DNA of 64,000 nucleotides from Spirochaetae bacterium HGW-Spirochaetae-1 (GTDB lineage: Bacteria; Spirochaetota; UBA4802; UBA5550). The DNA lies in NCBI GenBank assembly GCA_002839375.1, contig PGXY01000010.1, positions 310,001-374,000 on the forward strand. Reading direction: 5' to 3'. The notes beneath the pieces are model-generated. The model ran no database searches and was not told the origin of the DNA. It saw only the letters and a program-made list of their open reading frames with translations. This document shows, piece after piece, positions 22,530-33,002 of this stretch. A program made the translations under genes and the position numbers. Position 1 is the first letter of the stretch, and each line of letters opens with the position of its first letter.

Positions 22530-24206
22530 ATGAAATCAGAAACTTTACAAAAAGACCTTAAAAGCAAATTCGGCGGTGTGATTACAGGATTTGAAACCCC
22601 CAAACCCGATCGCCTCTATATAGATGTAAAAAAGGAAGGTTTCAAAAACGTCGCCTATGAACTGTGGCGAGATGGCGCACGGTACCTGGTGGGTGTCGGA
22701 TACGACAACATCAGCAGGGACGGTTCCCTTGGGATGATCCACTGTTTCGCTTATGATGGAGAAAAGCTCCTGGTGAACCTGAGAACAGCAACACCTGAAA
22801 AGGATCCGGTTTTCGATTCAGTGACTCCCGAGATTCCCGGTGCTGGATGGTCGGAAAGGGAATATCAGGATCTCCTGGGTATGAAGTTTACCGGCCATCC
22901 CAAGCCGAAAAAACTTGTTACGGCCGACGACTGGCCGGACAACATATATCCTCTCAGAAAGGATGTACCCTATGACCTGGTTCCTCCATCGGCGGAAGAC
23001 GTGGCATATCAGCTCGATGAATGCCCCGAGGGATGTTCTGTAATACCCGTTGGTCCCTTTCATCCATCATTGCACGAACCGAACCACTGGGCAGTGTATG
23101 TGGATGGCGAAACAATCAAGGGTGCCGATTACCGCGGATTCATGACGCACCGGGGCATTGAAAAACTCTGCACAACCCAGGTGAGCTATAATGAGATTCC
23201 TTTTATAGCGGAACGCATATGTGGAATTTGCGGATCGGTCCATGCAACGGCCTATTCACAAGCCGTTGAGGAAGCCGTTGGTTTAAAAATATCCCGCCGG
23301 GCTGAGTACATAAGGACTGCCATGCTGGAGATCGAACGTCTCCACTCGCACCTGTTATGGCTCGGTGTGGCCGGTCACCTTATCGGCTTCGATACGGTCT
23401 TCATGCAGTCATGGAGGGTGCGTGAGCAGATTATGTGGCTCTGCGAACGGATCACCGGAAACCGAAAGACATACGGCATGATAATCATTGGTGGCGTTCG
23501 CCGCGATCTGACGCCGGAGACGCAGAAAGAAATCCTCGATGTCCTCAAAAAAGTCGAGGAAGAGACCATGGTCATATTCAAAGCGATAAAAGGGGATACG
23601 GCCATCCATAAGAGAACCAAGGGTGTCGGTTTCATAACAAGGGAGCAGGCGGTTAAATGGAGTCTCGTTGGTCCCGTTGCCAGGGCCCGGGGCGTTGATA
23701 TAGATGTGAGAAGGGATCATCCCTACGCAGCTTATAACGATGTAAAATTTGATGTTCCCGTTGTAGACAGCTGCGACGTCTGGGGCACCGTGGTCGTGAG
23801 GATTCTGGAGATATTTGAAGCGATAAAAATAATCCGACAGTTATTTGATCAGATGCCCGCAGGGGAACTGATCACCGAAGTCGAAGAAGCTCTGCCGGCA
23901 TTGAAGCATGGAATATCCAATGTAGAAGCGCCGCGCGGTGAATCAGTCCATTATGTTATCACCGGTGAAGAAAACAGGCCTGATCGCTGGAGAGTGCGTG
24001 CCCCGACCTATCCGAACCTTCAGGGAGTTCCGGATATGCTGACAAACGATCAGTTTGCCGATTTCCCGATTATTCTGGGCAGTATAGATCCATGCTTTTC
24101 ATGCACGGACCGGGTCAATATTGTAAACGTCAGGTCGGGCAAAATCAAGGTTATGAACCGCCTGGAACTGGAAAATATGTCAAGAAACTATAAAAGGGGA
24201 AGATAA
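22530..24206 (+). CDS. hycE: [NiFe] hydrogenase large subunit fused to NuoC domain (HycE type)
   Basis: The 558-residue protein joins an N-terminal NuoC-like domain (about residues 1-170, ending near YPLRKDVPYD) to a NuoD-like catalytic domain, as in E. coli HycE. Both nickel-binding motifs are intact: RICGICGSVH (Cys231, Cys234) and DPCFSCTDR (Cys522, Cys525). This makes it a true hydrogenase rather than a complex I-related protein that has lost nickel. About 30 residues follow the second motif, close to the 32-residue tail removed from E. coli HycE, which fits the protease gene two genes upstream. It should reduce protons or oxidise H2 on the cytoplasmic side of the membrane. An AGGTAG-type ribosome site precedes the ATG. 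Confidence 0.96.
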   Translation: MKSETLQKDLKSKFGGVITGFETPKPDRLYIDVKKEGFKNVAYELWRDGARYLVGVGYDNISRDGSLGMIHCFAYDGEKLLVNLRTATPEKDPVFDSVTPEIPGAGWSEREYQDLLGMKFTGHPKPKKLVTADDWPDNIYPLRKDVPYDLVPPSAEDVAYQLDECPEGCSVIPVGPFHPSLHEPNHWAVYVDGETIKGADYRGFMTHRGIEKLCTTQVSYNEIPFIAERICGICGSVHATAYSQAVEEAVGLKISRRAEYIRTAMLEIERLHSHLLWLGVAGHLIGFDTVFMQSWRVREQIMWLCERITGNRKTYGMIIIGGVRRDLTPETQKEILDVLKKVEEETMVIFKAIKGDTAIHKRTKGVGFITREQAVKWSLVGPVARARGVDIDVRRDHPYAAYNDVKFDVPVVDSCDVWGTVVVRILEIFEAIKIIRQLFDQMPAGELITEVEEALPALKHGISNVEAPRGESVHYVITGEENRPDRWRVRAPTYPNLQGVPDMLTNDQFADFPIILGSIDPCFSCTDRVNIVNVRSGKIKVMNRLELENMSRNYKRGR

Positions 24207-31851: not shown

Positions 31852-32220
31852 AATGCTCCTTTTCGTACGCTATCCAGTATTAAATATATGTAAATATCCG
31901 GTAAATGTTTCCTGAAATCGTGATAAAACAGATGGTTTCAAGACTGAACATCCGCTCAGAAAATGATAAAGGTACATTACTTTAATTTTTAGGAGCTTTG
32001 TCAATGATTATCAGGTAAAAGCCGTATTTTTACGATGATCATGGGGGTCAGAGCATGATTTTATCTTAGTTTTTTACTGGACACTAGTTGGAATGATATA
32101 TAAATTGTAATATGGGCAAACATTAAAAGAAGTTTTTACATTGAAATTGCCCACAAGGAAACATCCGTTAATGTTTTTTGGAAGTTTCCTTATATTTATA
32201 TTAATGGTCTTTCAAATCAT
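31852..32220. other. Intergenic region between thiG and rnpB
   Basis: This 369-base AT-rich gap separates divergent transcripts and should hold the thiGH promoter on the minus strand and the rnpB promoter on the plus strand, though neither is clear enough to place. It contains GGGGTCAGAGC at 32044-32054, a word also found near 53.1 and 53.8 kb, and an AAGGAAAC/GTTTCCTT inverted repeat near 32156-32192. No ORF with support was found. Confidence 0.6.
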
Positions 32221-32627
32221 AGCTAAAAAAGGGGAACAGGCGGTCGCGCTGGCCCGCTGTAAAGCGGGCGGTGAGGAAAGTCCGAACACCGAAGGGCAGG
32301 GTGCCGGGTAACGCCCGGGCGTCGTGAGGCGACGGAAAGTGCAACAGAAAATATACCACCACCTCACCCCCCTTACCCCCCTCTCCATATGGAGAGGGGG
32401 GTAAGGGGGGTGAGGTGGTAAGGGTGAAATGGTGAGGTAAGAGCTCACCGCGCCGGCAGTAATGCAGGTGGCAGTGTAAACCCCACCCGGTGCAAGACCA
32501 AGTAGACAGCCGCTCAAGGACTGCCCGTCCAAGGCTGTGGGTAGGTCGCAAGGAGGTGTATGGCAACATGCATCCAAGATAGATGGCAGCTTAAACAGAA
32601 TTCGGCTTATGATCCCCTTTTTTAGCT
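32221..32627 (+). ncRNA. rnpB: RNase P RNA, bacterial type A
   Basis: RNase P RNA is the ribozyme that trims the 5' ends of pre-tRNAs. The conserved cores are present in order: GAGGAAAGTCCG near 32273, AGGGTGCCGGGTAACGCC near 32298, GTGCAACAGAAA near 32339, TAAGGGTGAAATGGTGAGGTAAGAG after the P12 arm, CCACCCGGTGCAAG near 32484, GTAGGTCGC near 32541, and ACAGAATTCGGCTTAT near 32595. The first 15 bases and the last 15 are perfectly complementary and form P1, whose right arm with its T-run may double as the terminator. Minus-strand ORFs over this region are shadows. The P12 arm is unusual and listed separately. Confidence 0.96.
32358..32419. repeat. 62-base perfect inverted repeat forming the P12 arm of rnpB
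   Basis: Bases 32358-32386 and 32391-32419 are exact reverse complements (29 bp), and the ATAT between them is itself palindromic. The arm sits exactly where E. coli RNase P RNA has the P12 helix, between ACAGAAA and AAGGGTGAAA. It is almost pure pyrimidine on the left and purine on the right (runs such as CCCCCC TTA CCCCCC). P12 varies in length between species, but a perfect, bulge-free stem of this length is unusual and suggests expansion or insertion of a small palindromic element. Confidence 0.9.
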
Positions 32628-32684
32628 TGATAATATACAGAAAAGATAAAGCATTATGTTCATCATAATCAGCGGGGTTTGGCC

Positions 32685-33002
32685 ATGAAAAAAACTATTA
32701 TCGCGTCAATTCTCCTTTTTACCTTCATGGGTGGTGTGGTATACAGCAGTTACCAGGTCGTCGATGTCTATATCTGCGAGGAAGGCATGGTCCTGGCTGA
32801 AATAACGGCCAAATCCATTGTGAGCCGCAAAGAACTATACCGGGCCAGCTACTGCGATTGTCAAGGCGTGAACGATGATATGAAGAGCAGAGTAAAGAAA
32901 GGCAGCTGGGAACGGGAAGGGTTTAAATACGAATATGGTTCCTGCGAATCCCCGAAAAACAGGGTCTTCCGCTGTGTCTGCGTTGGGACTGATAGATATT
33001 AA
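32685..33002 (+). CDS. Small exported cysteine-containing protein of unknown function
   Basis: I do not recognise this 105-residue protein. It starts MKKTIIAS with a hydrophobic N-terminal segment to about residue 22 that could be a signal peptide or a single membrane anchor. The remainder has six Cys residues in a short span (ICEEG, YCDCQG, GSCESP, RCVCVG), arranged as pairs that could form disulfides in the periplasm. An in-frame TTG two codons earlier is an alternative start; ATG 32685 is preferred, with GGGG upstream as a weak ribosome site. It stands between rnpB and sppA in the same direction, 99 bases before sppA. Confidence 0.65.
   Translation: MKKTIIASILLFTFMGGVVYSSYQVVDVYICEEGMVLAEITAKSIVSRKELYRASYCDCQGVNDDMKSRVKKGSWEREGFKYEYGSCESPKNRVFRCVCVGTDRY

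Follow-up and report, generated by a model that had tools for sequence, protein, structure and literature searches.

Repeats within the gene for RNase P RNA have reportedly been found in heterocyst-forming cyanobacteria, where Vioque is said to have described, in 1997, short tandemly repeated repetitive (STRR) sequences located in helix P12 of the molecule. The STRR sequences are tandem heptamers. Repeats in P12 of the RNase P RNA are thus already known from this cyanobacterial precedent, and the locus considered here is a variant with a palindromic, REP-like repeat. In the intervening sequences of 23S rRNA helices, which are excised by RNase III, an extra hairpin is tolerated at the variable helix tip of an essential RNA, while the Rickettsia palindromic elements are palindromic repeats that reside inside genes, chiefly protein genes. 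P12 itself, according to PMC2858038, is devoid of any universally conserved nucleotide and is sometimes dispensable, the latter with a citation of Vioque 1997. In PMC3116915 and PMC3733652, REPs and REPINs are short dispersed hairpins, often arranged in inverted pairs, and PMC3733652 also describes, for one genome, REPs inserted within small GC palindromes. The abstracts and passages of the open-licence literature that were consulted contained no report of a REP-like element in rnpB.

The present locus shares with the STRR sequences the presence of a genomic repeat family inside the RNase P RNA gene, yet differs from these tandem heptamers in being a single long palindrome, akin to a hairpin repeat dispersed in the genome, with no tandem unit visible by eye. 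It shares with the 23S rRNA intervening sequences an additional hairpin that caps a variable helix of an essential RNA, and with the Rickettsia elements a palindromic repeat inside a gene, although its sequence is different and the gene is rnpB rather than one coding for a protein. As with REPs and REPINs, the related repeat in the source genome (G000) is a short dispersed hairpin, with 12 copies against 0 for the control and more copies in some relatives, and inverted pairs occur among the copies. Twelve copies are a low number for a REP family. The repeat departs from REPs and REPINs in its tail, GTGAGG(T), which is neither of the tags, GTAG or CGTC, given in the title of PMC3733652, in that no Y1 transposase gene (RAYT, PF01797) of G000 was found with the repeat tail within about 1.5 kb, and in that the P12 copy sits inside an RNA gene.

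The window analysed in this work is a stretch of DNA of 64 kb, in which cmscan detected a full-length gene for RNase P RNA of class A, its score (against a gathering score of 100) and its match over the full model length placing it in this class (Table 1). A whole-genome search of the 5.2-Mb G000 gave this one match. The cmscan alignment locates the bases that are extra relative to the RF00010 model as an insertion at the tip of P12, and the remainder of the gene outside the P12 arm is intact and well conserved. The original prediction of a perfect 29-bp palindromic P12 arm with an ATAT tip proved exact in its coordinates, since two arms of 31 nt (32358-32388 and 32389-32419) are 100% complementary with zero gap; the 5' arm, which had been called almost all pyrimidine, indeed counts 26 pyrimidines out of 31 and no G. 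When folded as RNA, the segment 32354-32424 reaches -71.2 kcal/mol, compared to a mean of -34.4 for its shuffles, and none of 200 dinucleotide shuffles was equally good. A search of the entire window for inverted repeats with arms of at least 18 nt and a spacing of up to 100 nt recovered five others, of 18-22 nt and 73-83% complementarity. About 50 nt 5' of rnpB, at 32118-32176, two 18-nt arms with 83% complementarity and a spacing of 23 nt form an imperfect inverted repeat, and a small ORF of 107 aa with a VVDVYICE motif lies 3' of the gene, at 32679-33002. A sequence similar to this ORF is also present 3' of rnpB in G011 and G019 (L073, L074), and the neighbourhood therefore looks conserved.

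Table 1. The rnpB gene and the parts of its P12 arm, in window coordinates
Feature	Position	Strand	Basis
rnpB, class A RNase P RNA	32228..32624	+	RF00010, 306.4 bits, model 1-367; sole genome match
Distal P12 arm, a perfect palindrome; 29-bp RNA helix with 4-nt loop	32358..32419	+	31+31 nt, 100% complementary; z -10.5 for 32354-32424
ATAT tip, AUAU loop of the P12 hairpin	32387..32390	+	Direct reading; fold
CC-ACC, probable 5' strand left over from the native P12 base	32356..32360	+	Inferred from ACCGCC of relatives; fold
GGT-AAGGGTGAAA, probable 3' side of what we take to be the native P12 base, with what is presumably the conserved J12/11 segment	32417..32429	+	cmscan alignment; same anchor in relatives
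REP-like core ACCTCACC...GGTGAGGT, part matching the dispersed repeat	32361..32416	+	nhmmer profile; BLAST

A BLAST search of G000 with the segment 32350-32428 returned eight loci outside rnpB, with E values from 6.5e-4 to 1.24, seven of which represent one family of hairpin repeats, to which the eighth (L009) does not belong. The best copies in G000 are about 80-85% identical to the arm, the top one at 85% over 40 columns. The whole-genome search that the original prediction had proposed for the 62-base element produced no exact second copy, either by BLAST or by a pattern search that matched P12 alone, but it did reveal 12 related copies: a motif pattern gave 14 matches in G000, two in P12 and 12 elsewhere, and none when the pattern was reversed. 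At the BLAST loci, the repeat takes the form of a hairpin, CCCCCTCTCC-loop-GGAGAGGGGGCCGGGGGGTGAGGT or near it, and the 12 copies have the end GTGAGGT in common. In four of them an inverted tail begins 69-70 nt upstream, thereby forming a REPIN-like pair with outer ends near ACCTCACCCC/GGGGTGAGGT, and two further copies, C7:412894 (-) and C7:413069 (+), make up a wider inverted pair. Nine copies do not overlap mechanically called ORFs of at least 100 aa, two overlap partially and one, at C11:155186 (L087 1499-1538), lies inside an ORF of 785 aa, so that the repeat may be part of a gene for a protein. The motif also appears in 33 of the 58 relatives searched, with 572 matches in summed whole-genome counts versus 8 for the reversed pattern, and is most abundant in G004 (144) and G012 (128); in some genomes, for instance G051 with 13 matches and a control of 2, most of the matches do not look like members of the repeat family. 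Variants with TTA or TAA in the middle of the repeat exist in relatives, such as GAGAGGGGTTAGGGGTGAGG in G033 and G037.

The correspondence between the arm and this repeat extends to its ends. An nhmmer profile built from the 12 copies, without P12, matches the arm on both strands, at 32376-32416 (+) and 32401-32361 (-), with an E value of 2.9e-4 each; no match at E<=10 was obtained in the reversed window or in the rnpB loci of the other 53 relatives, and the other matches of the profile are L123 and L124, treated below, with E values of at least 0.015. The arm and the repeat unit have identical bases in 22 of 26 columns, and the P12 ends ACCTCACC/GGTGAGGT, at 32361 and 32416, are the same outer ends as those of the paired copies. 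In alignment to the genomic repeat the G000 arm scores 31 (27 for its 5' half alone, with the arm cut at the middle), compared to at most 18 for the other arms, the best being that of G016 (CACCTCACCCTTGTAAGGGGGATGAGG), which, as a guess, might be a decayed form of the same repeat-derived arm. Shuffled arms score as high in 12 of 20000 cases when dinucleotides are preserved and in 3 of 20000 for mononucleotides; the arm being rich in G and C, these figures leave a chance similarity that is not negligible. The arm departs from the repeat in its middle, where it reads GTAA and the 12 other copies read CC, CA or CT. The difference is symmetrical in both P12 arms, and its source would be either a donor from a diverged subfamily, a correction of the palindrome after insertion or co-evolution of the arms.

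The distal P12 arm of G000 thus probably derives from a copy of the dispersed REP-like palindrome that entered the tip of the native P12, and a mobile-hairpin origin appears largely supported. A REP-like element, with a hairpin core CCCCCTCTCC-loop-GGAGAGGGGG and an outer tail GGGGGGTGAGGT, would enter the tip of a short native P12 hairpin and, once present as RNA, the palindrome would prolong P12 without a break, outward from the conserved core. As the element is palindromic and reads as such a prolongation, the ribozyme could keep working, and the arms would stay, or become, perfectly complementary, either through compensatory selection acting on the helix or because template switching corrected the palindrome. 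In this scheme we infer the insertion event, its enzyme, the tolerance of the ribozyme and the correction step. The native P12 stems of relatives, exemplified by CCGCCCC-GCAA-GGGGT, resemble the small GC palindromes described in PMC3733652 and look like a target of this type. There are also observations that weigh against an insertion: the 12 copies in G000 are fewer than those in G003, G004, G012, G015 and G017, whose P12 arms are without this repeat, and to this are added the lack of an exact second copy in G000, the GTAA mismatch in the middle of the arm, and Y1_Tnp genes without the repeat tail. An empty site was not encountered in the relatives, all of them from other genera, nor was a target-site duplication established.

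Five Y1_Tnp (PF01797) genes are present in G000, and a linkage of the repeat to the Y1 transposase was rejected, the GGGGTGAGG/CCTCACCCC tails being absent within about 1.5 kb of all five. Across the 59 genomes, the counts of the motif and of Y1_Tnp show a weak correlation (Spearman 0.33, p 0.01, with no correction for kinship); at least six motif matches go with no Y1_Tnp in four genomes, and five have at least four Y1_Tnp and no motif. Perfect hairpins adjoin two Y1_Tnp genes, one with a stem of 32 bp (L042 955-1025) and the other with a stem of 19 bp (L043 1330-1374). They are unlike the P12 repeat, and may be the own targets of the adjoining transposases.

The exact complementarity of the arms, together with the symmetry of their differences from the repeat, is also consistent with local growth of the palindrome, whereby a short native C/G stem would have been lengthened by slippage and template switching and would resemble the repeat in composition only. 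Long clean arms of unrelated sequence do occur in relatives, with 20 bp in G049 and 15 bp in G030. However, the arm fits the repeat in its order and at both of its ends better than nearly all of its own shuffles, and the BLAST loci are concentrated in one family, which renders local growth an unlikely account of the arm. Palindrome expansion, one of the two ideas of the original prediction, is unneeded as the source of the sequence, yet may explain the perfect complementarity that the arms have at present.

The search for rnpB covered 59 genomes, G000 and 58 others from its family, order and phylum, none of which is from its own genus; the order is represented by 46 genomes, so that a wider rnpB search added none. 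In 54 of the 59 (G000 included) rnpB was found, the other five having no match, and 51 P12 arms were readable. Left out were G014 and G037, in which stretches of N interrupt P12 and delete P10-P12, respectively, and G050, in which the anchors failed. The N stretch in the rnpB of G014 (L072) coincides exactly with P12, and may reflect masking or an assembly gap due to a hairpin or repeat. The readable arms have a median length of 29 nt and attain 45 nt or more in 11 cases, including 6 of the 19 within the same family; many are short clean stems, at odds with the original view that P12 is usually bulged or internally looped. The unbroken 29-bp helix of G000 is the longest of the 51, the next being 20 bp (G049) and the median 6. 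Within a single genus (g4), arms of 21-25 nt (G003, G015, G018) alternate with arms of 68-74 nt (G012, G017, G019), which indicates that P12 changes quickly. In an rnpB tree from which most of P12 had been removed, G000 was unplaced and the bootstrap was unsettled.

An ordinary inherited helix, gradually lengthened under selection favouring the stability of P12 or its binding of protein, and with no mobile element, would suit the wide variation of P12 length in relatives and the good conservation of the rest of rnpB, but is very improbable, as the alternation within genus g4 is not gradual and the arm sequence of G000 is absent from the other 50 readable arms. The original prediction had associated such a helix with an arm conserved in all relatives and with no other copies; since none of the 50 arms shares the sequence and 12 related copies exist, both halves fail, and the insertion of a small mobile hairpin, borne out in part, emerges as the better of its two ideas.

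Other P12 arms in the relatives are repeat-like as well. A second arm type, CCCCTCGGCTYCGCTCGGGGC..., is common to G012, G017 and G019, and G004 has it too, at 95% across 38 nt. With the 74-nt arm of G017 as query against 20 genomes of the family, matches at E<=1e-3 were located only in rnpB, in four genomes, while a 17-base pattern of this arm type gave 18 matches in 8 of the 20 genomes, 11 of them outside rnpB, and one for the reversed control. One of these matches, a palindrome elsewhere in the G017 genome (L122), is identical to its arm at 47 of 64 columns, and others are half-matches or not hairpins of that kind; a dispersal of the arm type of G012, G017, G019 and G004 appears weakly supported. 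The arm of G004, in an rnpB of 627 nt, extends over 285 nt and includes a 24-nt unit, GTTGCTCTGAGCAGGGTCGAAAGA, repeated 6.5 times in tandem (L066 454-609; Tandem Repeats Finder, applied to this locus only), and thus looks closer to the STRR sequences than does the arm of G000. The P12 arm of G002 measures 65 nt.

A further case was encountered in a collection of 84,980 species, which was scanned for the 3' anchor of rnpB with CCTCACCCC within 20 nt. The GGGGTGAGG-tailed form was detected at no fewer than two loci, L123 in a Candidatus Bipolaricaulota MAG and L124 in a Candidatus Acetothermia MAG, a lower bound because the scan requires exact anchors and may omit near relatives. Both loci belong to RF00010 (198.2 and 190.1 bits) and, as they lie outside the set of phylum neighbours searched, they would come from a phylum different from that of G000. 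The P12 of L123 agrees in 63 of 69 columns with a dispersed element of its own genome (L132, G059:C2, beside 22985-23049), an agreement that extends to the unpaired loop, and the motif has 108 matches in that genome (reversed control 1). The genome of L124 (G060) has 35 (control 0), and the P12 of L124 retains just the ends, CCCTCACCCC-GGCT-GGGGTGAGGG, and could be a collapsed copy of the repeat. The strongest evidence that a P12 arm can arise from such a repeat comes from L123, a clearer case than G000 itself. The rarity originally ascribed to such an arm agrees with the at least two loci of the GGGGTGAGG-tailed form in the scan, but has to be tempered by the repeat-like arms in four relatives and an arm of the same kind in another phylum.

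The proposed insertion suggests how large peripheral arms may be acquired by an essential ribozyme. A selfish palindrome would do almost no harm where it lands on the tip of a hairpin that is already present, because it is read as a prolongation of that helix. A testable origin is thereby offered for the large variation in P12 length, and older and fresher insertions may provide a natural series from which to learn where RNase P RNA can accommodate extra structure. It is conceivable, though doubtful, that palindromic repeats from several unrelated families generally use P12 as a landing site in different bacterial phyla, and that the 29-bp helix of G000, long enough as an RNase III substrate, leaves the mature ribozyme as a natural RNase P RNA of two pieces, severed in P12 and joined through its core.

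In the rnpB of G056 (L069), which still scores 256.4 bits, ACAGGGGTCAGGTCTCAACATTTGACA and the complementary sequence form a long inverted repeat in P3 that looks like a small mobile element. The rnpB genes of L123 and L124 are without 24 model positions near P19 and contain, as judged by eye, hairpin-rich extra sequence near P3. In both loci a fluoride riboswitch is found about 40-60 nt 3' of rnpB.
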